A DNA stretch of 64,000 nt from Bifidobacterium breve. Its GTDB lineage: Bacteria; Actinomycetota; Acidimicrobiia; Acidimicrobiales; Acidimicrobilacustridaceae. The translations under genes were made by a program, and so were the position numbers. The stretch covers positions 1 through 64,000 of the forward strand of contig CAMCTY010000005.1 in the NCBI GenBank assembly GCA_945878725.1, read 5' to 3'. Under the pieces are notes generated by a model, which worked only from the letters and a program-made list of their open reading frames with translations, made no database searches and had not been told where the DNA came from. Shown here in pieces: positions 4,125 to 16,911 of the stretch (the stretch's first letter is position 1; every line of letters begins with the position of its first letter).

Positions 4125-4472
4125 ATGACTGCGACCCTCGCCCCCTTTGATGCCGATCGCCACTGGCGACTCCATGAGCGCGTTGCGCTGCGCCCCGAGC
4201 CGTTCGGCGCGCTGGCGTATCACTACGGCAACCGGCGACTCACCTTCCTGCGCTCGCCCGATCTCGTGACACTTGTCGAGCTCATCGGCGATCAACCCGA
4301 TGCGCTCAGCGCGTTCGTTGCCGCCGGCATTGATCCAGCCCGCTGGCCGTCATTCGAAAAGGCGCTCACCTCGCTCGTGGCCGGCGAATTCCTCGTCGGT
4401 GACGATCACGTGACCGAAGTCGAAAACTCCTCCCCGTCCGTCCCCGAATCCGAAACGTCGAGCCGACCATGA
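4125..4472 (+). CDS. mftB: Mycofactocin biosynthesis chaperone MftB (RRE, PqqD-like)
   Basis: A 115-residue protein starting MTATLAPFDADRHWRLHERV, with the pattern RPEPFGALAYHYGNRRLTFL and RSPDLVTLVELI typical of MftB. It is a PqqD-like RiPP recognition element that binds the MftA leader and delivers the peptide to the radical SAM enzyme MftC. The C-terminal 20 or so residues are Ser/Glu/Pro rich and look disordered. Its stop overlaps the mftC start by 4 bp (ATGA), implying translational coupling and fixed stoichiometry. It begins 51 bp after mftA. Confidence 0.95.
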   Translation: MTATLAPFDADRHWRLHERVALRPEPFGALAYHYGNRRLTFLRSPDLVTLVELIGDQPDALSAFVAAGIDPARWPSFEKALTSLVAGEFLVGDDHVTEVENSSPSVPESETSSRP

Positions 4473-5602
4473 CTGCACTGACCGAACAGTTGGCCGAAGG
4501 CCTCAACTCCCCCATCTGCCTCACCTGGGAATGGACCTACGCCTGCGATCTGCAGTGCGTGCACTGCCTTTCATCCTCGGGTCGCCGTGATCCCGACGAA
4601 CTTTCGACCGAACAGATGAAGGACGTCGTCGACCAGCTTGCCGAGATGCAGGTGTTCTACGTGAACATCGGTGGCGGCGAGCCGATGCTGCGCCCCGACT
4701 TCTTCGAGATCGTCGAATACTGCGTCGAAAAGGGCGTCGGCGTGAAGTTCTCGACCAACGGTGGTCGCATCAACGCCGAAACCGCAAAGCGTCTGGCATC
4801 GATGAATTACGTCGACATTCAGATCTCGCTCGACGGTGTCGACGAAGTCACCAACGATGCTGTTCGCGGTGAAGGCACCTACGCCCGAGTCCGCACCGCC
4901 ATGAACCACTTGCGCGATGCCGACTTCGGTCAGTTCAAGCTTTCTGTCGTCATGACCCGCGAGAACGTTGAGCAGGTTGACGCGTACGAGGCGCTCGCCA
5001 ACGAATACGGCGCCGAGTTGCGACTCACCCGCTTCCGTCCGTCCGGCCGCGGCATCGAGACCTGGCACGATCTGCACCCGACGCAGGCACAGCAGGTTGA
5101 GCTCTACCACTGGCTTCTGGCCCGTCCGCAGGTACTCACCGGCGATTCGTTCTTCCATCTCTCCGCTCTTGGTGAAGCCCTTCCCGGGCTCAACCTCTGT
5201 GGTGCCGGCCGTGTCGTGTGCCTCATTGATCCCGTCGGCGACGTGTTCGCCTGCCCGTTCGTTCTGCACGATGAGTTCAAGGCTGGTTCGATCCACGGCG
5301 AAGGCGGATTCCGTGCCGTGTGGCAAACGTCTGACCTCTTCACCTCATTGCGCGAACCCTCAAACCCCGGTGCGTGCGGTTCCTGCGGCAGTTTCGATGC
5401 GTGCGGTGGTGGCTGCATGGCGACCAAGTTCTTCACTGGCCTGCCGCTCGACGCTCCCGATCCGGAGTGCGTGTTTGGTCATGGCGAAACAGCGCTCGCC
5501 GAACTCGAAGCCAATGGCGGCGCCGTCCGCCCCGGCGTCAGCAAGGATCACTCGAAGCCGATCGGCTTCGGCAAAAAGCGCATCCCGGTTTCAATCCTCT
5601 GA
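4469..5602 (+). CDS. mftC: Mycofactocin radical SAM maturase MftC
   Basis: The 377-residue protein has the radical SAM cluster motif CDLQCVHC near residue 26, the GGGEPMLR stretch that contacts SAM, and a C-terminal SPASM domain with Cys-rich GACGSCGSFDACGGGC and a later Cys at PDPECVFGHG. MftC oxidatively decarboxylates the C-terminal Tyr of MftA and then forms a carbon-carbon bond to the Val. Length and motif spacing agree with the family. It is coupled to mftB by an ATGA overlap. The next gene, mftD, is convergent with only about 20 bp between the stops, so the operon mftA-B-C ends here. Confidence 0.97.
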   Translation: MTALTEQLAEGLNSPICLTWEWTYACDLQCVHCLSSSGRRDPDELSTEQMKDVVDQLAEMQVFYVNIGGGEPMLRPDFFEIVEYCVEKGVGVKFSTNGGRINAETAKRLASMNYVDIQISLDGVDEVTNDAVRGEGTYARVRTAMNHLRDADFGQFKLSVVMTRENVEQVDAYEALANEYGAELRLTRFRPSGRGIETWHDLHPTQAQQVELYHWLLARPQVLTGDSFFHLSALGEALPGLNLCGAGRVVCLIDPVGDVFACPFVLHDEFKAGSIHGEGGFRAVWQTSDLFTSLREPSNPGACGSCGSFDACGGGCMATKFFTGLPLDAPDPECVFGHGETALAELEANGGAVRPGVSKDHSKPIGFGKKRIPVSIL

Positions 5603-5623
5603 CGCGACCAGCGTCGAGGCTGG

Positions 5624-6799
5624 TTACTTGTCGCCGAGGGTGACGAAGAAGTCGCGCGGTGCGATCACATCGTCGGGCGTGAGTTCGCTGATGTGCGACT
5701 TGCCCAGACCAAGCAGGCACGAGTCGATGCCGCCGTGCAGGATGTCGAGCACGTTCTCGACGCCAGCCTGTCCATTGGCAGCAAGGCCCCACAGATAAGC
5801 GCGGCCGATCATCACGGCTTTTGCGCCCATAGCAACGGCCTTCACGACATCGCTGCCGCGGCGGATGCCGCCATCGAGGACGACGTCAATGTCATTGCCG
5901 ACTGCGGCAACGATTGCTGGAAGCACACGAATCGGTGACGGCGTTCCGTCGAGATTGTTGCCGCCGTGGTTCGACACGGAAAGGCCCGTGGCGCCCAGGT
6001 CGCGAACGCGCTTGGCATCGTCGACACGACACACGCCCTTGACCACAAATGGTCCGTCCCATTGCGAGCGCAACCATGCGATGTCTTCCCAACTGGGAGG
6101 CGGCATCTGCATCCACTCGTAGTACGCACCAAAGAACGCTGGCGGCTTCTGGCCGGGATGGGCCATGTTCGGCGCACTGAGATCGGGGAGCTTGCCGGTC
6201 TTGAGATAAGCGATCAGCCACTTGGGCTTTGAAAGCGCCTGCGGGGACAGCTTGATCATCGTCTTGAGATCGAGCTTCTCCGGGATCCAGGGGCTGCCCC
6301 AGTCGCGACCGTTCGAGAACGTCCAGTCGAGCGTGAGGATGATGCCTTTCGCGCCGGCGGCCTTGGCGCGCTCGAGGCGCTGCACCATGACATCGCGACC
6401 GCCGGACCAGTACATCTGGAACAACAACTGCGAGTTCACCGCAGCAACGTCTTCCATCGACTTGCTGCCGAACGAACTGAGACCCATCGGGATGCCGCGA
6501 TTGGCGGCGGCACGCCCGACAGCAACTTCACCATCGGGATGCACGGCCTGCACGCCAGTCGGCGAAATGATGACGGGCATTGAGATGTCGAGACCAAACA
6601 CCGTGGTGTTCATCGAACGTTCGGCCTGAAGGCCGGCCACGTGAGGGGCGAGTCCGAGCTGATCGAACGACGTGAGATTGCCGTTGAGCGACAGACCCTT
6701 CTCGGCGCCGCCGATGATCGCCCCGTAGACCGACTTGGGAAGACGCTTCTCGGCCCGGCGTTGAGCCACGGCTACCGTCTCGAACCATTTGTTTGCCAT
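5624..6799 (-). CDS. mftD: Pre-mycofactocin synthase MftD (FMN-dependent alpha-hydroxyacid dehydrogenase family)
   Basis: A 391-residue TIM-barrel flavoprotein of the lactate/glycolate oxidase family. It has the catalytic block SNHGGNNLDG; the NNLDG variant, where ordinary hydroxyacid oxidases have RQLD, is typical of MftD. It also has the FMN-phosphate motif LDGGIRRGSDVVKAVAMGAK followed by VMIGRAYLWGLAANGQ. MftD oxidatively deaminates the AHDP intermediate to pre-mycofactocin, the first redox-active form. In many genomes mftD follows mftC on the same strand; here it is inverted and convergent with mftC, so it has its own promoter. Confidence 0.94.
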   Translation of the reverse strand: MANKWFETVAVAQRRAEKRLPKSVYGAIIGGAEKGLSLNGNLTSFDQLGLAPHVAGLQAERSMNTTVFGLDISMPVIISPTGVQAVHPDGEVAVGRAAANRGIPMGLSSFGSKSMEDVAAVNSQLLFQMYWSGGRDVMVQRLERAKAAGAKGIILTLDWTFSNGRDWGSPWIPEKLDLKTMIKLSPQALSKPKWLIAYLKTGKLPDLSAPNMAHPGQKPPAFFGAYYEWMQMPPPSWEDIAWLRSQWDGPFVVKGVCRVDDAKRVRDLGATGLSVSNHGGNNLDGTPSPIRVLPAIVAAVGNDIDVVLDGGIRRGSDVVKAVAMGAKAVMIGRAYLWGLAANGQAGVENVLDILHGGIDSCLLGLGKSHISELTPDDVIAPRDFFVTLGDK

Positions 6800-6926: not shown

Positions 6927-7892
6927 TTACCAGTGATGATGGCCGTCAGCGGGATCGACTGGCGGAGTGACGCCGAACCGGTCCCGGACTTCGTTCAGGG
7001 GAAGGGCGGCGAGTTCGAAATGGTCAACCAGTGAGAAGTCGGCGGAACACCGGGCGCCGCGCGCCAGTTCCTGTCCAAAAAGTTCGGCGGCTCGCCCGTC
7101 GGCCAATGTTCCCGACTCGGACGTCAGCTTTCCTGCGTTTCCAATCCCCACCTCGTGAACGATCAGCGATGCCAACAGCGCGGACCTGTTGACCTCGTTG
7201 TCGTTCATCGCCATCTGGAACGCACTGAGGGCCAGTTCGCCCGGTCCGGTCGGTTCGATGCCGGCGATTACATGGGTCATGTCGTGGGCGACGAAGAAAT
7301 GGTTCATCCATGACGCCTCTGTGCCCGGCGTCAGAAATCGATGGCGTTGGTAGAACTCGATGTAGCTCCAGCCCAGAGTGCCCTTCGGAAGTTCGTGCAG
7401 TTGATCAAGCTTCGCGGCGAGTTCTGGCTCGGCAGCATCCGCCGGTACCGTTCTGCCTCGTAGCGAAGGCTCGGCTCGCTCGGCCAGGTTGGACCGCAGG
7501 AAACGCTGGAAATCGTCAGCTGCGATTTTCGTGCCGTTGTCTACGAGGTCTCGGAGTATCTGCCGTTCGGGTCCTTCGACTCCGAGAGCGCCGAGGTACG
7601 CCTCGACAGAACCGACTTGAGCCGCCGACATCGGGTGACGACAGGCCTCGAGCGCAACAAGTAATTCGTGGAAGCACCTGCGGGCGGCGGCGCTCTCCAG
7701 TAATTCTGCGGTTTGCGCGGGGTCGAGGGTCGCCATGTTCGAGAGGTCGAGATCGTCCCGATTCCAGAGATGCGCAGTGATCGATCGCAATACCGTCAGT
7801 TGTTCCTGTGTCGGCCCATCGTCGACGTCACAGGCGCCGAGAAGTCCGGCAACGGTCACGTCGACCAGATCGGGATCAAGCGAAATCGGCAT
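6927..7892 (-). CDS. TerB-like / Coq4-like two-domain protein
   Basis: A 321-residue protein. Residues about 8-135 are helical and resemble TerB-type domains (VDVTVAGLLGACDVDDG, FHELLVALEACRHPM, VEAYLGALGVEGPER). The second half resembles Coq4: LPKGTLGWSYIEFYQRHRFL, then FVAHDMTHVIAGI, the HDxxHxxxG metal motif, then GELALSAFQMAMNDNE with the downstream acidic residue. Coq4 supports ubiquinone synthesis in mitochondria and some bacteria, but actinomycetes use menaquinone, so another substrate is expected. ATG at 7892 is chosen over a TTG one codon earlier. It is alone on its strand between mftD and a divergent DUF1214 gene. Domain calls are from motif recognition only. Confidence 0.7.
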   Translation of the reverse strand: MPISLDPDLVDVTVAGLLGACDVDDGPTQEQLTVLRSITAHLWNRDDLDLSNMATLDPAQTAELLESAAARRCFHELLVALEACRHPMSAAQVGSVEAYLGALGVEGPERQILRDLVDNGTKIAADDFQRFLRSNLAERAEPSLRGRTVPADAAEPELAAKLDQLHELPKGTLGWSYIEFYQRHRFLTPGTEASWMNHFFVAHDMTHVIAGIEPTGPGELALSAFQMAMNDNEVNRSALLASLIVHEVGIGNAGKLTSESGTLADGRAAELFGQELARGARCSADFSLVDHFELAALPLNEVRDRFGVTPPVDPADGHHHW

Positions 7893-7939
7893 CAATCAAT
7901 TCCGTTCACGCGCAGGTTGACGAGCATCGTCCGAAGGAG

Positions 7940-7968
7940 CCGACACTACCGAGCAAAGGTCGTACGAT
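7940..7968 (+). promoter_or_regulatory. Candidate promoter of the DUF1214 gene
   Basis: CCGACA at 7940-7945 and TACGAT at 7963-7968 are separated by 17 bp and lie about 25 bp upstream of the ATG at 7993, which is itself preceded by AGGGGGA at 7983-7989. It is a weak match to the housekeeping consensus, supported mainly by spacing and position. Confidence 0.28.
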
Positions 7969-7992
7969 GGGGTTCTGCTTCCAGGGGGATTC

Positions 7993-9114
7993 ATGACCAT
8001 CGACACATCTGCCGCCGCGTTCGCCGATCTTGCGACGCTTCTCGCCGACATCAATTCCGACGCCGATCACCCGCGTTGGAACTTCATGAACGATCTCGAT
8101 CGCGCGTCGTATCGGGAGTTCGCCATGCACTCAATGCAGCACGCGCTGCAGTTCTGGCTTGAGGCTGATCCGGCTCGGCCCCGCTTCCACCGCTGGTTCA
8201 TGCCGAACAAGAAACTGCTCGGCGACAATCCCGACACCGTCTATTACGGCACGGTCATCGACCCCACGAAGTCATACCGGATTCGAGGCAATATCGCCGA
8301 CGCCTGCTACACGTCGTTCACGGTTGAGGTCGGAACGGCCGGCGGCACGATGTCGCAGAAACTCGGGCACACCCTCAACGACGATCAGTTCGATGTCGAT
8401 GCGGCCGGAAACTTCGAACTGATCGCGTCCGCTGACGGAGACGGCCCGAACTGGTTGCGACTTGACCCCGAGGCCGGTTCCATCACCACGCGCCATTATT
8501 TCGAGTGGAAGCGATGTGCAGCGCTGGATCCGAACCTGCATGTTCCGTTGTCAATCGAACCGCTCGATGATCCCGGCCCGCCATCTGTGCCTGATGACGC
8601 CGCCGTGGCCGCAAACATCCGTCGGGTCATCACCTTCCTGCGCTCGGTGACTGTCGACTGGGGCCACACCCCCATGCCGCCCGGAGCGATTCCGTGGGTT
8701 TCGGCCGTGCCGAACACATTCACGAATCCCCCGGCCCATGACGGGAACCTCGCCATCGGTTACGCCGCGACCGACAACATCTACCGCAGCGCGCGTTGGG
8801 CGCTCGAGCCTGACGAGGCCCTTGAGATCCGGGGCGTTTGGCCCCGCTGCCGATTCGCCAACATCGTGCTGTTCAACAACCACATGCAGACACTTCCCTA
8901 CGACCGCCGGCAGGTTTCACTCAATCGCGTCCAGACCGAGGTCGAGGCCGACGGTTCGTTCCGGATGGTTCTCGCCCATAGCGATCCCGGCGTACCCAAC
9001 TGGCTCGATACGCGTGGACTGCATCACGGCACGATGTTCTGGAGGTTCCTGATCCCAACTGAGGCGCTTGCGCAGCTGGAAACTCGGGTTGTGAAGTTCT
9101 CTGATCTTTCCTGA
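7993..9114 (+). CDS. DUF1214 domain-containing protein (paralogue 1)
   Basis: A 373-residue protein without signal peptide. Recognisable DUF1214-type segments are LLGDNPDTVYYGTVIDP, IRGNIADACYTSFTVEVG, and near the end NRVQTEVEADGSFRMVLAHS followed by GVPNWLDTRG. A second copy of similar length lies at 9713-10831. DUF1214/DUF1254 proteins have no established biochemical role, though they often sit near hydrolases and redox enzymes in actinomycetes. The ATG has a strong AGGGGGA ribosome-binding site. A MOSC gene follows after 43 bp on the same strand. I do not assign a function; position inside the mycofactocin region suggests a role with its client enzymes. Confidence 0.8.
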   Translation: MTIDTSAAAFADLATLLADINSDADHPRWNFMNDLDRASYREFAMHSMQHALQFWLEADPARPRFHRWFMPNKKLLGDNPDTVYYGTVIDPTKSYRIRGNIADACYTSFTVEVGTAGGTMSQKLGHTLNDDQFDVDAAGNFELIASADGDGPNWLRLDPEAGSITTRHYFEWKRCAALDPNLHVPLSIEPLDDPGPPSVPDDAAVAANIRRVITFLRSVTVDWGHTPMPPGAIPWVSAVPNTFTNPPAHDGNLAIGYAATDNIYRSARWALEPDEALEIRGVWPRCRFANIVLFNNHMQTLPYDRRQVSLNRVQTEVEADGSFRMVLAHSDPGVPNWLDTRGLHHGTMFWRFLIPTEALAQLETRVVKFSDLS

Positions 9115-9157
9115 GATTTACTGAAAGTTCTGGGCCGGTATCGGTCAAACTGCTTCC

Positions 9158-9712
9158 ATGACTCACGTGCTCGAAGGAACCGTCACCAGCCTGCATAGCG
9201 ATGGCGGACACAACTTCTCAAAGCCAGCAATTCACGAGGCCGTCTTCCTTGCCGGGGTTGGAATTGAGGGCGATGCTCACTCTGGCCCAACCACACAACA
9301 TCTGAGCCGACAGAAAAAAGACCCGACTCGTCCGAATCTCCGTCAGGTACATCTTGTGGCCAGCGAAATTCACGCAGGCTTGCGGGCTGACGGCTTTGAC
9401 GTCCCGTTTGGTTCTTTCGGAGAGAATCTCACGACAAGCGGAATCGAACTCGGTGAACTACCCGTTGGTTCGACGTTGCGCCTAGGCGATGACGTCATCG
9501 TCGCGCTCACTGGTTTTCGCGATCCGTGCGCCCAGATCGACAATTTCCAAGAAGGATTGCGCGCCGCGGTTTCGTTCAAGCCCGAGGTTGGGCCTCAACT
9601 GTTTCGCAATGGTGTGATGTCGATAGTCATACGCGGTGGAACCGTACGGGTCGGCGACTCCATCAAGGTTGCGCTGCCGGCCGAACCGCACCAGCCAATG
9701 CAAAAGGTCTGA
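9158..9712 (+). CDS. MOSC domain-containing protein
   Basis: The 184-residue protein starts MTHVLEGTVTSLHSDG and contains GIEGDAHSGPTTQHLSR, FGSFGENLTTSGIEL, LRLGDDVIVALTGFRDPCAQ (conserved Cys) and MSIVIRGGTVRVGDSI. These are the standard blocks of stand-alone MOSC beta-barrel proteins of the YiiM/molybdenum-cofactor sulfurase C-terminal type. They bind or transfer sulfur or reduce N-hydroxylated compounds with molybdenum cofactor. No molybdenum-cofactor genes lie in the window. It follows the first DUF1214 gene and its stop abuts the stop of the second, convergent DUF1214 gene with no spacer. Confidence 0.88.
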   Translation: MTHVLEGTVTSLHSDGGHNFSKPAIHEAVFLAGVGIEGDAHSGPTTQHLSRQKKDPTRPNLRQVHLVASEIHAGLRADGFDVPFGSFGENLTTSGIELGELPVGSTLRLGDDVIVALTGFRDPCAQIDNFQEGLRAAVSFKPEVGPQLFRNGVMSIVIRGGTVRVGDSIKVALPAEPHQPMQKV

Positions 9713-10831
9713 TCAGACGAGATCGGGTGTGAGGTCTGCGAACTTCACGACCTCACACGTCGGCTTCTCGATGTCACCTTCTGGCAAGAAGAATCGGAAG
9801 AACATCGTTCCGAGATTTCGGCCTTCGGTATCGATCCAGTTGGCGTGACCGGGATCGGAATGAGCCAGCACGAGTGTGAAGCTTCCGTCTGCGTTCAACG
9901 TGGTGTTGGCACGGTTGCGACTGACCTGTCGGTTCACATAGTCGTACATCTGTGACCAGCGGTTCCAGAGGCACAGGTTGGCAAAGACGCACTCGGGCCA
10001 GCGACCGCGGATCACAAGCGCTTCGTCGTCACCAATCAAGTACGGCGCCATCGAATAAGCCGCATCAAAGGCAGCGAAAGCCATGTTGCCGGGAACAATC
10101 GGTTGCGGAAGTTCGTTCGGAACGCGAGAGACAAACGGAATCGGCGTGTCTTCCGTGGGTGCAATCGATGCAACGGTCTTCTGGCTTACGTGATTGATCA
10201 CGCGCTGCAGAGCGGCAGAGACTCGTTCGTCATTCCAGCGCTCCGGAGCCGGAAGGCTTTGCACCGCTTCGATACTGATCGGGACATGAAGGGTCTGCGA
10301 TGCCGACGCCGACCACGGGAACTCGAAGTAATGACGGGTGGTGATGCGGCCGCCATCTTCGGGAATCGCCAGCCAGTTTCGATCATCCGCTTTGCCGCCG
10401 AGACGAATCTTGTAGTTGCCGTCGGCGTCGACATCGATGTCGCTATCGCGCAGAACGCCAGACGTGTGAGTTGCGTAGCCACCCTCGGCCGCACCGGCCT
10501 CCATCGTGAACGAGGTGTATACGGCTCCGGCAAAGTTCCCGCGCACGACGTATTCGCGGCCCGGAGCGATTGGCGTCTCGAAGTACACGGCGTCGGAGTT
10601 GTCGCCAGTGAAACTGCGCGTGGGTGACACGATCCGGTTGAAAACCGGGCGATCGGGGTCGAATTCCTGATGCGAGTAGAGCGCACTCTGCAAAATGTGC
10701 GACAGGTTGCGGAATCCCTCGGCGACATCGTCATCAGTCATGACCGGGCCGGGCACCACCCAATTGTCGGCTGCGTCCTGCAGAACGGCCAACAATTCAT
10801 TGAATTTCGCGCGTGATTGCAACTCACTCAT
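9713..10831 (-). CDS. DUF1214 domain-containing protein (paralogue 2)
   Basis: A 372-residue protein aligned by eye along its length with the gene at 7993: FTGDNSDAVYFETPIAPG, VRGNFAGAVYTSFTMEAG, ALVIRGRWPECVFANLCLWN, and ADGSFTLVLAHSDPGHANWI. The pair therefore came from one duplication or from two members of the same family. I chose the ATG at 10831, which has GGGGGAAACC just upstream and gives nearly the same length as the paralogue; an in-frame extension to 10888 is unconserved. It is transcribed towards the MOSC gene and divergently from the SnoaL-like gene at 10944. Function is unknown. Confidence 0.8.
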   Translation of the reverse strand: MSELQSRAKFNELLAVLQDAADNWVVPGPVMTDDDVAEGFRNLSHILQSALYSHQEFDPDRPVFNRIVSPTRSFTGDNSDAVYFETPIAPGREYVVRGNFAGAVYTSFTMEAGAAEGGYATHTSGVLRDSDIDVDADGNYKIRLGGKADDRNWLAIPEDGGRITTRHYFEFPWSASASQTLHVPISIEAVQSLPAPERWNDERVSAALQRVINHVSQKTVASIAPTEDTPIPFVSRVPNELPQPIVPGNMAFAAFDAAYSMAPYLIGDDEALVIRGRWPECVFANLCLWNRWSQMYDYVNRQVSRNRANTTLNADGSFTLVLAHSDPGHANWIDTEGRNLGTMFFRFFLPEGDIEKPTCEVVKFADLTPDLV

Positions 10832-10943
10832 GGTTTCCCCCTGGATCATGGAATGCTGCATCCTCGCAAATCTGAGCCGGTGATGCACGCCGCATCCGAT
10901 CGGGATGCCGGGCTACCGTCACACCAGACACCCAGGGGGGACC

Positions 10944-11444
10944 ATGACCAGCAACGACGCGCGCCTTTCCGAGGCACTCGATTACCTCGACATCCGCCGC
11001 ATCCAGAACCGCTACGCCGACATTGTCACCCGTCGAGCGTGGGCCGAGCTTCACGAGATCATGCGTCCGACCTGTCGCCTGGAACTGAACCTCGGCGACA
11101 GCACGATGTCGTTCGACGGGCCCGGGGCCATCGGCGACTTCATCGGCGATCAACTCACGCAGTTCTCATTCTTCGAGTTCGTGATCCTCAATACCGTCAT
11201 CGACGTAAACGTTGAGACCGGCGTGGCCGGAGCCCGCATGTACATGCAGGAGCTTCGTCAGAACGTTTCTGATGGTCGGCGCACGAACGCCTACGGCGTG
11301 TATCACGACCGATTCGAGCGCCATGACGGCACATGGTGGATCGCTACCCGCAAGTACGGATCATTCTCACGCACTGCCATCGATGGACCCGAGAACGAAC
11401 AGGTCGTGTTTCCGCTGCCGGAATTCGACCTCCGCTCGCTCTAA
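10944..11444 (+). CDS. SnoaL-like / NTF2-like domain protein
   Basis: A 166-residue protein starting MTSNDARLSEALDYLDIRRI, then QNRYADIVTRRAWAELHEIM, the opening of many SnoaL_4-type alpha+beta cone proteins. Later segments AIGDFIGDQLTQFSFFEFVI and YGVYHDRFERHDGTWWIATR fit the strand-rich end of the fold. Such proteins act as isomerases, dehydratases or hydrolases on small hydrophobic substrates. The ATG at 10944 is preceded by AGGGGGG at optimal spacing; an upstream in-frame start at 10905 lacks this. It is a monocistronic plus-strand gene facing the unknown protein at 11462. The substrate is unknown. Confidence 0.78.
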   Translation: MTSNDARLSEALDYLDIRRIQNRYADIVTRRAWAELHEIMRPTCRLELNLGDSTMSFDGPGAIGDFIGDQLTQFSFFEFVILNTVIDVNVETGVAGARMYMQELRQNVSDGRRTNAYGVYHDRFERHDGTWWIATRKYGSFSRTAIDGPENEQVVFPLPEFDLRSL

Positions 11445-11461
11445 GGCGACTAGCGCGGAAG

Positions 11462-11887
11462 TTAGACGCTTAGATCGATCTCGTTGCCCTGGGCATCGCG
11501 GGCCTCGACGCGGCGCACGCCGGTCGGCGCGCCGCCCAAGCCAAGAGCCGACAGGATCTCGAACGCGCTGTCAGTGGCATTCGTCCCCGGCGGTTGACGC
11601 AAAGTCGCTCCTTCGCGGTCTTCGTCCAGCTGCCAGCCCCGACCGTCGAGCGCCGTCGCCACGTTGCGCAGTCTCGACGCGCTCAGATCGTTGAACCTCA
11701 CAACCAAAACGCTGCTGCCCCCGACCTTGGCGTTGATCACCAGCCGGTGCCAACCCTCAGGAGCTGACACCGACGCTGATCCATCCGTTTCGTTGATCAG
11801 AACGTGAGCACGGAGGCTCACGATTGCGTCGGTGAGGATGCCGACCGCGTCGAAATCGTCACAATCGAGTTCCAGGGGTTCGGCCAT
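11462..11887 (-). CDS. Hypothetical protein
   Basis: I do not recognise a family. The 141-residue product begins MAEPLELDCDDFDAVGILTD and alternates predicted strands and helices (HRLVINAKVGGSSVLVVRFN, LRNVATALDGRGWQLDED). There is no signal peptide, membrane segment or metal motif. Codon choice is like its neighbours and the ATG at 11887 is followed by an unbroken frame, so I consider it real. It is divergent from the mycofactocin-type SDR operon, with about 100 bp between the starts, and could therefore share its promoter region. Confidence 0.6.
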   Translation of the reverse strand: MAEPLELDCDDFDAVGILTDAIVSLRAHVLINETDGSASVSAPEGWHRLVINAKVGGSSVLVVRFNDLSASRLRNVATALDGRGWQLDEDREGATLRQPPGTNATDSAFEILSALGLGGAPTGVRRVEARDAQGNEIDLSV

Positions 11888-11988
11888 TCCCAAGCCTCGC
11901 ACGAGTCGGGGGCATGGCCGTAGGATTCGCTCTGTCGCTTCTCTGTCGGCACATCACACAGGGCGCCGCCATGGGGGAACCTCGGATC

Positions 11989-12810
11989 ATGGAATCACAA
12001 ACGGAACGTGACGCACCGGTCGCCATCGTCACCGGAGCGGCCCGCGGGATAGGTGCAGCCACCGCAGTTCGTCTTGCACGGCGCGGGTACACCGTTGCGT
12101 TGATCGATATTCCGGCCGAGTCGCCGGGTCGCATCGCCCCTGTTCCCGGCCCTTACGTCGCCGCCAGCAGCTCCGATCTTGATCTTGCTGCTGCTGCGTG
12201 CGGTGGGCGTGGTCACGCCTGGGCCGCCGATGTCCGAGACGACATTGCCCTTTCTGCCGTCGTCACGTCAGTGCTCGAACGCTTCGGACGCATCGATACG
12301 GTCATCGCAGCAGCCGGCGCAGTCGCGGGTGGCGTACCGCTCTGGGAAACAACCAACGACGTGTGGCGCTCCATGATCGAGATCAATCTCACTGGGGTGT
12401 TCAACATCGCACGAGCCACGATTCCAGCGATGCTGGCCTCGCCCGAACCTCGCAATGGCCGCTTCATCGCCGTCGCATCCGCCGCGGCCCATCACGGACT
12501 TCCCCAGCTCGGCGCCTACTCCGCAGCAAAACACGGTGTGGCCGGACTGGTCAAAGCACTCGCGGCCGAGCTCGGTTCCAGTGGCATTAGCGCCAACGCC
12601 GTCGCCCCCGGTTCGACCGACACCGCGATGCTGCAAGGCAGCGCGGCGATCTACGGCCTTTCCGATCCGGGAGCCTTCGCCGATCAGGCCCGCATCGGAC
12701 GTCTCATCGATCCCGACGAAATTGCGGCCACGATCGAGTGGCTGTGCACCGATGCCCCGGCGGCACTCACCGGAAGCGTCATCGACGTCGACGGCGGATT
12801 CCGACCATGA
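11989..12810 (+). CDS. Mycofactocin-coupled SDR oxidoreductase
   Basis: A 273-residue SDR with VTGAARGIGAATAVRLARRG, the active site AYSAAKHG and VIDVDGG. Between the second Rossmann strand and ADVRDD there is an insertion (PVPGPYVAASSSDLDLAAAA) like that of mycofactocin-associated SDRs, which bury a non-exchangeable NAD that only mycofactocin can re-oxidise. IAAAGAVAGG replaces the common NNAG motif, also as in that subgroup. The start is uncertain: ATG at 11989 is used, with GGGGGA 10 bp upstream; ATG 11971 is possible. It overlaps moxR by 4 bp and heads an operon that ends with mftE-mftF, so it is probably a dehydrogenase using the cofactor. Confidence 0.85.
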   Translation: MESQTERDAPVAIVTGAARGIGAATAVRLARRGYTVALIDIPAESPGRIAPVPGPYVAASSSDLDLAAAACGGRGHAWAADVRDDIALSAVVTSVLERFGRIDTVIAAAGAVAGGVPLWETTNDVWRSMIEINLTGVFNIARATIPAMLASPEPRNGRFIAVASAAAHHGLPQLGAYSAAKHGVAGLVKALAAELGSSGISANAVAPGSTDTAMLQGSAAIYGLSDPGAFADQARIGRLIDPDEIAATIEWLCTDAPAALTGSVIDVDGGFRP

Positions 12811-13751
12811 CCGGGTTCACCCGCAACGCTGTCGACGCGATCGGCTCGCGGGTCGTGGGCCGGCGCGGTGAGATCGAGGTTGTCGTCGCCGCACTCGGTG
12901 CCGATCGCCATGTTCTTCTTGAGGGACCTCCCGGTACCGGAAAATCCTCGCTGCTGCGGGCACTGGCTGGAGCCGCCGACACGGCCCTCGTCTTTGTCGA
13001 GGGCAACGCCGAACTCACACCAGCACGACTTGTCGGTACTTTCGACCCCTCCCGGGTACTCGTCGACGGCTACTCACCCGATGTGTTTCTCGATGGACCG
13101 CTGATCGAAGCGCTGCGCACGGGAGCGCTGCTCTACATCGAAGAGATCAACCGCGTTCCCGAAGAAACGCTCAACGTCATCATCACGGCAATGAGTGAAC
13201 GCGAACTCCACGTGCCGCGCCTCGGCCGTGTCGAGGCGGCAGCGGGATTCAGAGTCGTCGCCGCGATGAATCCGTTCGACGCGATCGGGACCGCCCGCAT
13301 TTCGTCGGCGGTCTACGACCGGGTCTGCCGGGTTTCGATGGGCTACCAAAGCGAAGCCGACGAATTTGAGATCGTGGCCCGCGAGGCCGGGGAAACTGGC
13401 GCAGGACCACTCGGCCGACGCGCGGTGCGCGTCGTGCGTGCGAGCCGCGAGCATCCCGATCTCCGTATCGGATCATCAGTTCGCGGTGCAATCGACATCT
13501 CGCTCCTCGCCGCACAGCTCGCCGCGATCCGTTTCGCGTCCCCGCTCGACGAGGCGGTCGGACTCGATGCTGCACTCGCCGCGCTTTCGGGCCGCATTCG
13601 GCTTCGCGAAGGCGGGTCCCGCTCACCCGAGGACATCGTGCGCGAGTTGTGGGCGGCTCATCCGCTCGAGTCCGCCGAGCCCGAGGGCGACGATCCGGCC
13701 AATGCCGACATGGCACCGCCGAGTTCGAGTGCCAGTCCGGGAAAAGCCTGA
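12807..13751 (+). CDS. MoxR-family AAA+ ATPase
   Basis: A 314-residue ATPase with Walker A LEGPPGTGKSS, Walker B LLYIEEINRVPEE, sensor 1 VAAMNPFDAIG and a sensor-2 region containing SSVRGAIDISLL. These are MoxR/CbbQ-type features. The C-terminal 30 residues are a Pro/Ser/Glu-rich tail. The start ATG overlaps the SDR stop (ATGA). MoxR proteins work with VWA-domain partners to insert metals or remodel and activate enzymes, as in NorQ-NorD and CbbQ-CbbO. The VWA gene follows directly. Being enclosed between a mycofactocin SDR and mftE, it probably acts on a mycofactocin pathway enzyme or its client dehydrogenase; that is inference. Confidence 0.9.
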   Translation: MTGFTRNAVDAIGSRVVGRRGEIEVVVAALGADRHVLLEGPPGTGKSSLLRALAGAADTALVFVEGNAELTPARLVGTFDPSRVLVDGYSPDVFLDGPLIEALRTGALLYIEEINRVPEETLNVIITAMSERELHVPRLGRVEAAAGFRVVAAMNPFDAIGTARISSAVYDRVCRVSMGYQSEADEFEIVAREAGETGAGPLGRRAVRVVRASREHPDLRIGSSVRGAIDISLLAAQLAAIRFASPLDEAVGLDAALAALSGRIRLREGGSRSPEDIVRELWAAHPLESAEPEGDDPANADMAPPSSSASPGKA

Positions 13752-14725
13752 GCCCTCAGCCCGGCACCGGTGGGGGCAGCGCCGAATCGGACGATGAGCG
13801 CACGCTCGAGGGTCAGGAAGCTCAGGATGCGCTCACCGAGGCATCGCGTCGCACATCGTCAAGGCAATCGCTCGCGCGAAATCCCGGGTTCGAGCAGATC
13901 TCTCCTGATGTCGGACAACTCGACGAAGCGGCGTTCGACGATGCTCTGCGCGACAACCCCGATGACGCGCTCGCGCTTCTCGCCGAACTGAGCGGGGCAA
14001 CCGACGAACGACTGCGGGCACTGGCCCGGCAACTTGCCGGTCGCGTCATGGTTGATGTCGTGCGCAGCGGTTCGACGCGTCGCCCTGGGATAGGCCGACT
14101 CCGTCATCGTCGTGCAGATCTCTCCACTGGCGAACTCGACATCGATCGCGGCCTCGAAGCCATCGCGTCTGCTCGCGCACGGGGAGACGCTCCCGCCCTT
14201 GATGAACTCATGGCTCGCGAGTGGTCGAAGCCGGAGTTAGCCCTGTGCCTCGTCGTCGATCGCAGCGGTTCGATGGGTGGCGATCGATTGGCGACCGCCG
14301 CCGTTGCCGCCGCCGCGTGTCTTTGGAGGGCCCCCATCGACACAAGCGTGATCGCGTTCAGCGATGACGCCTTTGTTCTCGCCGGTCAGGGTTCAGGGCG
14401 CGCTCCCGAAGGAGTCGTCACCGACCTCCTCCGCCTGCGTGGCCATGGCACCACTGACCTCGCCCTCGGCCTGCGAACAGCGGCAGCCCAACTCGAACGA
14501 TCGCGGGCATCGCGCAAAGTCACCATTCTCCTGTCCGACGCCCGGCCCACGGCCGGTTCCGATCCCGCCGAGATCGCTCGAAGTCTCGATGAGCTCGTCA
14601 TCGTCGCTCCCGCCGATGACGATTCCGAAGCGATTGCCTTCGCAGCGGCGACCGGGGCCCGATGCGTCGGCGTCGCCGGGCCGTCTGCCATTCCCGAGGC
14701 CATCGGAAACGCGCTGTTCGGCTAG
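13748..14725 (+). CDS. VWA domain protein, partner of MoxR
   Basis: The C-terminal half is a von Willebrand A domain with a complete MIDAS site: DRSGSMGG, the Thr in GHGTTDLALG and the Asp in LLSDARPT. The N-terminal half is helical, containing EAAFDDALRDNPDDALALLA and RALARQLAGRVMVDVV. The start is problematic. No ATG, GTG or TTG exists in frame between 13649 (GTG) and the conserved region; the GTG would overlap moxR by over 100 bp and add an Arg-rich leader typical of a shadow frame. A CTG at 13748 overlaps the moxR stop as CTGA and gives 325 residues, so I used it. The conserved region itself is certain; the start is not. Confidence 0.82.
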   Translation: MSPQPGTGGGSAESDDERTLEGQEAQDALTEASRRTSSRQSLARNPGFEQISPDVGQLDEAAFDDALRDNPDDALALLAELSGATDERLRALARQLAGRVMVDVVRSGSTRRPGIGRLRHRRADLSTGELDIDRGLEAIASARARGDAPALDELMAREWSKPELALCLVVDRSGSMGGDRLATAAVAAAACLWRAPIDTSVIAFSDDAFVLAGQGSGRAPEGVVTDLLRLRGHGTTDLALGLRTAAAQLERSRASRKVTILLSDARPTAGSDPAEIARSLDELVIVAPADDDSEAIAFAAATGARCVGVAGPSAIPEAIGNALFG

Positions 14726-14761
14726 TCCCCAGTGACACCCAATCGGTGGGATCATGACGAC

Positions 14762-15445
14762 ATGGGCCTGGGGCAGTTGCGAGATCGAACGTGGACGGAG
14801 ATGGCATCAGATCGCCGCCCGTTCTTGCTCATTCCTGTCGGGAGTTGTGAGCAGCACGGACCCCATCTTCCGCTTGACACCGATACCCGAATCGCCGAGG
14901 CCATCGCCGAACGCGTTGCCGACGGAACTCCGGACGTGGTCGTCGGACCGTCGGTCAACTTCGGGGCATCGGGTGAACACGCCGGTTTCGCCGGAACTCT
15001 TTCGATTGGTTCGGCAGTTCTTCACGACCTTCTCGTCGAACTTGGGCGTTCGGCCGATCAGTTCCGAGCAGTCGTGTTCGTCAATGGCCACGGCGGCAAC
15101 ATCGATGCCGTCCGCTCGTCAGTCGCGTTGCTTCATGGCGAAGGCCGCAACGTCAGCGCGTGGTCTCCTTCGATTCCCGATGGTGATGCACACGCTGGTT
15201 TCACCGAGACGTCCCTTCTTCTCGCCATTGATCCCGAGTGCGTGCGCGTCGATCGACTCGGGGCCGGAACCATCGCACCCCTGCGCGATCTTCTCCCCGA
15301 CCTGCGGGCCGGCGGAGTCCAGTCGGTCTCAACGAACGGGATTCTCGGAGACCCACGCGAAGCAAATGCGGTCGCCGGAATGACACTGTTCGATTCTCTT
15401 GTCACGCAACTTCTCGCGTTCCTCTCGGAAAATGGTGAATGGTGA
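14762..15445 (+). CDS. mftE: Mycofactocin peptidase MftE (creatininase family)
   Basis: A 227-residue creatininase-fold metalloprotease. Metal ligands and neighbours are visible in PVGSCEQHGPHLPLDTDTRI, in FVNGHGGNIDAV and in the later DAHAGFTETSLLL. MftE cuts MftA after MftC action and releases the modified Val-Tyr dipeptide. The ATG at 14762 puts LRDRTWTEM at the usual N-terminal place and has GGTGGG upstream; a GTG at 14732 would add ten residues. It follows the VWA gene by 36 bp and overlaps mftF by 7 bp, so mftE and mftF are translationally coupled. Confidence 0.94.
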   Translation: MGLGQLRDRTWTEMASDRRPFLLIPVGSCEQHGPHLPLDTDTRIAEAIAERVADGTPDVVVGPSVNFGASGEHAGFAGTLSIGSAVLHDLLVELGRSADQFRAVVFVNGHGGNIDAVRSSVALLHGEGRNVSAWSPSIPDGDAHAGFTETSLLLAIDPECVRVDRLGAGTIAPLRDLLPDLRAGGVQSVSTNGILGDPREANAVAGMTLFDSLVTQLLAFLSENGEW

Positions 15446-16911
15446 GTTCCACTTCGCTTGCAGGTCTGACCGTCGGCGCTGATCCCTCGCTGCGGCGCCA
15501 GGACGACGGCCGCGTGCTGATCGGTGGTTCACCGCTGTCGGTCATGCGTCTGTCGGCCGCCGGTGCCTCTCTTGTGACACGACTCCTCGCCGGCGAACCC
15601 GCACCCGCCGGTACTAGTGCAAGTCATTTGCTGCGCAGGCTCTTGGAAACCGGAATGGTCCATCCCGTCCCTAACGCAACACCGTTCACGCTCACCGACG
15701 TCACGGTTGTGATTCCGGTCCATGGCACCCTGCATAGCGAATTGCTTGACGCGATCAGGGGCGTCGCCGCCATCATCGTGGTCGACGATGCGAGCCCTCA
15801 ACCGATCCGCGTACCAGCGCACAACATTCACGACGTATCGACGACCGTCATCCACGTTGGCATCCAGCAGGGTCCAGCAGCCGCCCGCACTATCGGTGCC
15901 GGCCGCGTGGCGACCTCAATCACTGCATTCCTCGACGCCGATTGCGTTCCATCCGACGATTGGCTCGAACCTCTCCTTGGTCATTTCGCGGATCCATCTG
16001 TTGCGGTGGTCGCGCCTCGCATCGTTCCCACCGATCCCATCAACGATCAACCGACCCGACTCGCGCGCTACGAACACATCCGTTCCGCACTTGATCTCGG
16101 TTCCCGACCGGCGCGCGTTCGGGCCCGGTCACGCGTTTCTTTCGTGCCATCCGCCGCACTCGTTGTTCGCAGCGACATCGTTCGCACCCATCACGGCTTC
16201 GATCATTCAATGACCGTCGGCGAGGACGTCGACTTCGTCTGGAGAGTCGACGAATCGGGCCATACCGTCCGCTACGAACCGGCGGCCACAGTGGCCCATC
16301 GGCACCGGACAACGTTCCGGGCCTGGGCTAGGCGCCGATTCGATTACGGAACATCGGCTGGCCCGCTCGCCCGACGCCATCCCGGAGCACTCACGCCCCT
16401 CGAAACCTCCGGGTGGAGCATCGCCGTCTGGGCGCTCCTCGCCACCGGCCACCTCGTCGGCGCCGGAGCGATCTTTGCCGGAACGGCCGCGCTGTTGGCC
16501 CGAAAACTCGAGTCGATCGACAAGCCGGTTCCGGCCGCCCTTCGCCTCGCCGCTGCCGGGCACCTCGGCGCCGGGCGCCTGTTGGCCCAGTCGATTGTCC
16601 GACCCTGGTGGCCGGTCACGTTGCTCGCCGCTGTATTCGTGCCGTCCCGCAAGTTCCGGGCTGTTCTGCTCGGGGCAGCCCTCGCGCCGGCAGTCATCGA
16701 CTGGATTCGCGAACGACCGCCACTTGATCCCGTCTCGTATGTTGCGTTTCGCGTCGCCGATGATGTCGCCTACAGCACCGGCGTCTGGGTCGGTGCTGCA
16801 CGAGCGCGAACGATCGAGCCTCTTGTTCCCGACTTCACGAGTTGGCCAAAGCCGAGTCGCTATTCGGTGCTGCGATCATTCAGCCGCGGCGAGTCACTCC
16901 CGCCGATCTGA
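15439..16911 (+). CDS. mftF: Mycofactocin glycosyltransferase MftF
   Basis: A 490-residue family-2 glycosyltransferase. An N-terminal PqqD-like region (residues about 15-75, LIGGSPLSVMRLSAAGASLV) precedes the GT-A domain, which has VVIPVHGT, IIVVDDASPQP, the DxD motif in FLDADCVPSDDWLE and EDVDFVWRV. The C-terminal 150 residues contain hydrophobic helices (WSIAVWALLATGHLVGAGAI and further on) likely to associate with the membrane. MftF adds beta-1,4-glucose units to pre-mycofactocin. An alternative GTG one codon downstream forms a GTGA overlap with mftE. Its stop is separated by one base from that of the convergent FKBP gene. Confidence 0.94.
   Translation: MVSSTSLAGLTVGADPSLRRQDDGRVLIGGSPLSVMRLSAAGASLVTRLLAGEPAPAGTSASHLLRRLLETGMVHPVPNATPFTLTDVTVVIPVHGTLHSELLDAIRGVAAIIVVDDASPQPIRVPAHNIHDVSTTVIHVGIQQGPAAARTIGAGRVATSITAFLDADCVPSDDWLEPLLGHFADPSVAVVAPRIVPTDPINDQPTRLARYEHIRSALDLGSRPARVRARSRVSFVPSAALVVRSDIVRTHHGFDHSMTVGEDVDFVWRVDESGHTVRYEPAATVAHRHRTTFRAWARRRFDYGTSAGPLARRHPGALTPLETSGWSIAVWALLATGHLVGAGAIFAGTAALLARKLESIDKPVPAALRLAAAGHLGAGRLLAQSIVRPWWPVTLLAAVFVPSRKFRAVLLGAALAPAVIDWIRERPPLDPVSYVAFRVADDVAYSTGVWVGAARARTIEPLVPDFTSWPKPSRYSVLRSFSRGESLPPI

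Follow-up and report, generated by a model that had tools for sequence, protein, structure and literature searches.

The 64,000-nucleotide stretch of contig CAMCTY010000005.1 analysed here, referred to as the window (contig C5 of genome G000, a 2.26 Mb assembly that is 93% complete), carries genes for a MoxR-type AAA+ ATPase and for a protein with a von Willebrand factor type A (VWA) domain within a run of five genes. The MoxR-VWA pair is a distinct subfamily, and the gene constantly found beside it encodes a dehydrogenase from any of three mycofactocin-linked families, namely the alcohol dehydrogenases (ADHs) of TIGR03989, which depend on N,N-dimethyl-4-nitrosoaniline (NDMA), and the short-chain dehydrogenases/reductases (SDRs) of TIGR03971 and TIGR04504. 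We consider it probable that the pair is a dedicated remodelling machine, an activase similar to NorQD and CbbQO, for mycofactocin-dependent dehydrogenases with permanently held nicotinamide adenine dinucleotide (NAD). The genes of the run are as follows:

11989..12810, plus strand: mycofactocin-coupled SDR (NCBIfam TIGR04504, 329.5 bits, cut-off 250), which occupies the partner slot
12807..13751, plus strand: MoxR-type AAA+ ATPase (Pfam AAA_5, 89.7 bits; AAA_3, 49.3 bits), with orthologs elsewhere in the order
13748..14725, plus strand: VWA-domain partner with a CTG start and the metal-ion-dependent adhesion site (MIDAS) motif DRSGS ... T ... D (Pfam VWA_2, VWA_CoxE)
14732..15445, plus strand: mftE, mycofactocin precursor peptidase (TIGR03964, 271.7 bits, cut-off 172), not a constant neighbour
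15439..16911, plus strand: mftF, mycofactocin glycosyltransferase (TIGR03965, 467.6 bits, cut-off 280), not a constant neighbour

The dehydrogenase partner of the pair

The gene upstream of moxR was classified at 141 sites, which were reduced to 138 by the removal of three duplicates and of which 135 are readable upstream; beyond the scanned examples, the ADH and SDR labels represent tblastn similarity. An ADH occupies this position at 85 of the 138 sites, a TIGR03971-like SDR at 14, another SDR at 11 (nine TIGR04504-like and two generic, in L130 and L133) and a second moxR gene behind an SDR at two. No dehydrogenase was found at 23 sites (20 with none of these genes and one each with an mftE-, mftD- or mftC-like gene), and three end at a contig edge. 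A dehydrogenase is thereby directly upstream at 112 of the 135 readable sites, or at 112 of 132 when three MoxRs that fall outside the family are set aside. All 14 mycofactocin-type SDRs that were scanned exceed the family cut-offs, five for TIGR04504 (the window, L058, L065, L094 and L043) and nine for TIGR03971 (L152, L164, L154, L155, L162, L190, L194, L196 and L201). Separate ADH and SDR cassettes stand side by side in three genomes (G249, G421 and G504). In the deep-branching locus L153, a flavin mononucleotide (FMN)-dependent dehydrogenase (4844-5983) lies directly upstream of moxR and is a possible further type of client.

A first-pass annotation, made from the sequence of the window alone, had described the pair as embedded in a mycofactocin operon. 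The survey does not support a place for the pair in mycofactocin synthesis itself: at 57 of the 135 sites moxR has an mftB-F gene (counted by tblastn; the mftD match of L153 is below the TIGR03966 cut-off) no more than 3 kb away, compared with the 112 that have a dehydrogenase. Fetched DNA extends beyond 5 kb on either side at 94 sites, and in 43 of them this 5 kb contains no mftB-F match. The pair does occur away from mft genes, which that annotation had regarded as damaging to its proposal, but a dehydrogenase is kept upstream at 33 of these 43 sites, compared with 44 of the 51 with an mft match. Sites with neither are G042, G057, L128, L132, L143, L160, L165, G239, G228 and G487.

The distribution within the window's order was surveyed in 198 genomes. 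A MoxR ortholog was found in 55 genomes at 56 sites, and the scores are bimodal: all orthologs reach at least 273 bits, and the next match is at 81 bits. The TIGR03989 ADH is present in 76 of the 198 genomes, at 129 sites, and in 53 of the 55 moxR genomes versus 23 of the 143 others; Fisher p-values for such co-occurrence take no account of kinship among the genomes. Matches to mftF exceed the cut-off in 67 genomes, and nine more have mftF-like matches below it (195-252 bits); an mftF-like gene accompanies moxR in 52 of 55 genomes, 48 of them above and four below the cut-off. Of the three moxR genomes that lack mftF, two (G047 and G063) contain mftC, and the third (G092) gave no mftC match. 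A mycofactocin marker is consequently present in 54 of the 55 moxR genomes, four of these on the strength of sub-cut-off mftF matches. The tie between the pair and the mycofactocin system, first noticed in the window, recurs well beyond it. Because 24 of the 76 mftF genomes have no moxR ortholog, the pair is optional for the mycofactocin pathway. The ADH lies directly upstream, on the same strand and within 300 bp, at 36 of the 56 sites, with a spacing of 16-212 bp; it is 305 bp away in G070 and 1500 bp away in G042. By comparison, 18 sites have mftF no further than 3 kb from moxR, six genomes show a distance of 19 to 714 kb between ADH-moxR units and mftF (118 kb in G006, 714 kb in G134), and thirteen genomes carry such units on contigs without mftF. 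Since the survey is bimodal and the adjacency recurs in many lineages, the SDR-moxR-VWA-mft arrangement exceeds what chance would produce.

In a sample of the phylum, 32 of 396 genomes match MoxR at E 1e-30. Three of them, G228, G239 and G487, with 43-47% identity, are placed outside the family by the MoxR tree and have neither mftC nor a dehydrogenase upstream. A scan of named genomes, in which the best 80 of 164 relatives were kept, revealed at least 62 actinobacterial loci with 47-78% identity, followed by a drop to 30% in other groups among the matches listed. Among the genera represented are Geodermatophilus, Modestobacter, Amycolatopsis, Pseudonocardia, Kribbia, Agromyces, Microbacterium, Rhodococcus and Kitasatospora. 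The subfamily was not seen outside Actinomycetota among the matches listed, the full genome searches having covered this phylum. All five named genomes tested hold mftC, and one genome displays the order SDR, mftC, ADH, fused MoxR-VWA, mftD, mftE and mftF. Of 151 genomes in the family of Rhodococcus L164, 115 contain mftC, and the 22 with an ortholog all belong to these.

The subfamily is also present in two records of a plasmid collection, both from Rhodococcus. The independent annotation of the Rhodococcus qingshengii plasmid RQCS_2 lists a mycofactocin-coupled SDR, a MoxR family ATPase and a vWA protein, with a 4 bp overlap between the SDR and MoxR genes and catabolic genes in the surroundings. 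In the Rhodococcus ruber megaplasmid pmega_1 (locus L271, NZ_CP145320.1 113082-125948), the MoxR and VWA genes are surrounded by three mycofactocin-coupled SDR genes, those that flank the pair running on the opposite strand. Neither plasmid is among the 12 plasmid records with an mftC match. Two haloarchaeal plasmids (NC_013744.1 and NZ_CP054588.1) carry an annotated mftC that is 44-46% identical to the window's MftC.

The two proteins and their surroundings in the window

Both proteins are real, with intact AAA+ and MIDAS motifs. The MoxR protein scores well above the Pfam cut-offs of AAA_5 (22 bits) and AAA_3 (27 bits), and its gene gives the single PF07726 match in the 2.26 Mb genome. The P-loop GPPGTGK and the EE, MNP and SVRGAxD columns are conserved across 24 ortholog rows. 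Its best NCBIfam matches, the gas vesicle protein GvpN (TIGR02640, 71.9 bits, cut-off 266.8) and MadB (NF047784, 53.4 bits, cut-off 475), are both below cut-off, and the protein belongs to neither family. Among the examples scanned, neither the MoxR nor the VWA proteins pass any NCBIfam model. Against the MoxR profile, NorQ scores 3.7e-20 and CbbQ 4.9e-16; the closest relatives of solved structure include NorQ and CobS.

The VWA protein matches Pfam VWA_2 (37 bits) and VWA_CoxE (36 bits, cut-off 26.4). In an alignment of 45 rows, D264 of the MIDAS is invariant and T236 is conserved in at least 90%; the invariance of DxSGS is circular, because the rows were chosen by that very motif. The AlphaFold model has a predicted local distance difference test (pLDDT) score of 92.5, and NorD chains hold Foldseek ranks 1-5. 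NorD is not in the 50 rows of VIA-align, which reflect mainly the common VWA fold; its absence there shows nothing. The protein may have a NorD-like architecture, in which a finger of the VWA protein reaches into the pore of the AAA+ ring. A VWA gene follows moxR at 132 of the 141 sites; seven of the misses are contig ends, and the other two concern the leading gene of a moxR tandem. Moreover, the two proteins are fused in one frame at 23 of the 141 sites in several lineages. The model of one natural fusion (L188; pLDDT 84.2, predicted template modelling score 0.46) contains a disordered linker at residues 282-315, and no interface is claimed from it. A Pseudonocardia metagenome-assembled genome encodes two MoxR domains and a VWA domain in a single 916-amino-acid frame (L166:6001-8748), and tandem moxR genes lie behind TIGR03971 SDRs in L190 and L194.

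The coordinates and family scans confirm the compact layout reported in the first-pass annotation: the SDR and moxR genes overlap by 4 bp, moxR and the VWA gene likewise by 4 bp, counted from the CTG at 13748 as the start of the latter, and mftE and mftF by 7 bp, while the VWA gene and mftE do not overlap and are separated by 6 bp. The CTG start, which had been put forward with hesitation, is found in frame at -4 from the moxR stop in all six loci compared (the window, L040, L041, L042, L043 and L108); a rival GTG start at -103 exists in the window alone among the six. The SDR gene has an alternative in-frame ATG at 11914. The order SDR-moxR-VWA-mftE-mftF was seen in the window's family only (the window, G180, G155, G053, G127 and L108).

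Further mycofactocin genes, including mftA, mftC and mftD, are located about 5-8 kb upstream of the five-gene run, with unrelated genes between:

4073: mftA-like peptide ending in IDGMCGVY
4125-4472: mftB, named by position
4469..5602, plus strand: mftC, radical SAM maturase (TIGR03962, 575 bits)
5624..6799, minus strand: mftD, pre-mycofactocin synthase (TIGR03966, 654 bits)

The region from 6927 to 11902, between mftC/mftD and the SDR gene, encodes a Coq4-like protein, two proteins resembling domain of unknown function DUF1214, a MOSC-domain protein and a SnoaL-like protein, an order that is partly retained in L041 and L042 according to a crude open reading frame (ORF) map. A second SDR gene lies at 1181-1957 on the minus strand. 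Elsewhere in Acidimicrobiia, the neighbours of mft genes include a mycofactocin oxidoreductase of the old yellow enzyme type (TIGR03996) and a FixC-like flavoprotein, both in L065, as well as a mycofactocin-associated EtfA (NF038209) in L077; these genes hint at an electron-transfer branch.

History of the partner slot

A quick tree of 138 MoxRs was compared with 200 runs of shuffled labels. The partner labels (ADH, SDR and TIGR03971 SDR) require five changes on this tree, versus a shuffled mean of 23.9, and none of the 200 runs was as low. Cassettes with different dehydrogenases thus correspond to different branches, and the TIGR03971-linked MoxRs constitute one group with a weak support of 73. 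The window-type SDR label emerges inside the ADH-linked MoxRs, in the window family, in G027, in G091 together with G047, and in L130 together with L133.

The tree of the ADHs comprises 110 rows, with 26 of the 129 places in the order not fetched. A single clade of moxR-linked ADHs was sought and rejected: the linked enzymes are scattered over the TIGR03989 tree, with 15 label changes of which at least nine are forced. Alignment columns that separate linked from unlinked ADHs reached at best 0.64 against a permutation limit of 0.45, a result confounded by related rows, from which nothing was drawn. The window genome has three unlinked TIGR03989 ADHs, at C18, C2 and C32. The sister group of the C18 enzyme and its four relatives contains 13 linked ADHs (support 92), which points to an ancestral ADH-moxR-VWA unit that was probably split in the window's family, its slot now being held by the SDR. 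With the SDR in the place of the ADH, the three unlinked ADHs may also be clients, served in trans.

Proposed function and comparison with known systems

The presence of a motor protein and its partner beside mycofactocin-using enzymes in many actinobacteria suggests a dedicated machine for opening or resetting them. By analogy with NorQD and CbbQO, MoxR would assemble into a ring on which the VWA protein docks, the MIDAS would grip the dehydrogenase, and ATP hydrolysis would pull the dehydrogenase open. Such pulling on a client through the VWA protein is described for NorQD and CbbQO (PMC13036017, PMC9976466). The target would be the buried NAD site, where opening might permit NAD loading, the expulsion of a trapped or damaged nucleotide, or the entry of the bulky mycofactocin; the likeliest client in the window would be the adjacent SDR. 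Remodelling of a buried-NAD SDR was the first option offered by the earlier annotation, and with a dehydrogenase adjoining at 112 of 135 sites it is the one that fits best.

More tentatively, a single activase may serve nicotinoproteins of two unrelated folds, the zinc-containing ADHs of the medium-chain dehydrogenase/reductase type and the SDRs, by opening their sealed NAD pocket, so that the nucleotide could be loaded, exchanged or rescued, or mycofactocin could enter. Should this possibility hold, the pair would be the first of the MoxR-VWA type for nucleotide-cofactor handling in dehydrogenases. The two folds appear to have in common their use with mycofactocin and a non-exchanging NAD, the latter shown for TIGR03971 SDRs and predicted for the SDR of the window. 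PMC5264612 describes the NAD of the mycofactocin-linked TIGR03971 SDRs as non-exchangeable.

Several observations weigh against a machine dedicated to these enzymes. Twenty readable in-family sites have no dehydrogenase directly upstream (in G042, an ADH is 1.5 kb away), and the SDRs at L130:5123-5977 and L133:5186-5947 have no mycofactocin-coupled model among the 25 matches listed. The SDR slot in the window is derived, and the window-type SDR label takes three to four changes on the MoxR tree, of which strongly supported branches force one. In addition, 30 of the 110 rows of the ADH tree, scattered over it, are TIGR03989 ADHs from genomes without any moxR ortholog, 23 genomes of the order have such an ADH without the pair, and 93 of the 115 mftC genomes in the family of Rhodococcus L164 lack an ortholog at E 1e-40. 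With so many ADHs of the same family in genomes that lack the pair, not all such enzymes require the machine; the 93 mftC genomes and the 23 ADH genomes thus mark it as an accessory whose use may be restricted to particular enzymes, substrates or stress conditions.

Four other explanations were weighed. Rather than act on the NAD site, the pair could assemble or dock the dehydrogenase with the partner that accepts its electrons (MftG or the respiratory chain), or set the oligomeric state of the enzyme. The same adjacency data fit this alternative, and fumarate reductase and complex I are known associates of RavA-ViaA, also a MoxR-VWA pair (PMC10585395, PMC3893208); we nevertheless regard it as unlikely, given that no membrane or respiratory gene was found to adjoin the pair constantly in the order's gene maps, which derive from the crude ORF map, a lead only, as it mislabelled shadow frames (cluster c3).

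Delivery of zinc to the TIGR03989 ADH, comparable to the loading of iron by NorQD and with the SDR neighbours being secondary, is an improbable alternative. The ADH is indeed the commonest partner, every one of the 45 linked ADH rows matches three of the four zinc-ligand-like patterns tested, and the kinship of MoxR with NorQ and CobS is in agreement with it. Against it, the same slot is held by 14 TIGR03971-like and nine TIGR04504-like SDRs, which are metal-free, separate SDR and ADH cassettes are kept in three genomes, and unlinked ADHs retain the same zinc-ligand-like motifs. Zinc ADHs carry a metal, whereas SDRs need none; because the same type of machine appears to serve both, opening of the NAD site is favoured over metal loading.

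A role in mycofactocin biosynthesis, for example in the metal loading of MftE that had also been suggested for the window, is highly improbable. The 18 order sites with mftF close by agree with it, as do L129 and G124/G154, where the pair adjoins mft genes and the gene immediately upstream is not a dehydrogenase, but the pair does not follow mftE, which is not a constant neighbour, and MftE metal loading was rejected as the main role. Dehydrogenase adjacency at 33 of the 43 mft-free sites, the 24 mftF genomes without an ortholog and the two Rhodococcus plasmids that carry the pair without an mftC match all oppose such a role. Finally, that an ancient operon has hitch-hiked with no functional link is scarcely credible: related genomes are non-independent samples, but the unit is conserved across deep branches of the phylum while the surrounding genes change, the partner type tracks the MoxR tree, and separate cassettes and plasmid occurrence recur.

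The texts searched, namely open-licence papers in PubMed Central (PMC), name no MoxR or VWA component of the mycofactocin system, in line with the earlier statement that the pair is undescribed for it. Neither MoxR nor a von Willebrand term occurs in the available portions of the mycofactocin papers PMC3023750, PMC5264612 and PMC11778925; in those of PMC8191103 and PMC7105596, mycofactocin and MoxR/VWA are named together solely in unrelated table rows or legends. Searches of this literature likewise yielded no paper that names an NDMA-dependent enzyme with MoxR, or MoxR with a nicotinoprotein. As far as it reaches, the pair would be a MoxR-VWA subfamily with a new client class, as judged from gene neighbourhoods. 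The mycofactocin-linked dehydrogenases hold NAD in a closed site and pass electrons to a bulky glycosylated peptide cofactor, and a linked ATPase would make it possible to test how NAD enters and what follows when the site is blocked. If the activase proposal is correct, MoxR-VWA chaperones gain a new class of clients, and failed or weak recombinant activity of mycofactocin-linked dehydrogenases could be explained; organisms without the pair, in which the same enzymes must manage alone, provide a built-in comparison.

The proposed clients are known redox enzymes of the mycofactocin system (mftA-F, the TIGR03971/TIGR04504 SDRs and the TIGR03989 ADHs). CoxD-CoxE and RavA-ViaA are MoxR-VWA pairs as well, and VWA_CoxE matches the VWA protein of the window. 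The client of CoxD-CoxE is carbon monoxide dehydrogenase. RavA-ViaA differs in its clients, fumarate reductase or complex I. As in NorQ-NorD, the MoxR ATPase stands beside a VWA protein with the genes adjacent to a client enzyme, and NorD provides the top Foldseek matches. By contrast, the client of NorQ-NorD, nitric oxide reductase, is a membrane haem-iron enzyme into which the pair inserts metal (PMC9976466, PMC13036017), whereas the adjacent enzymes here are soluble dehydrogenases that are partly metal-free. CbbQ-CbbO differs in that its client is rubisco, and the sequence similarity is low. It is nonetheless a MoxR-VWA pair that, according to the accessible text of PMC4660213, clears inhibitors from a finished enzyme, which is the type of work proposed here.

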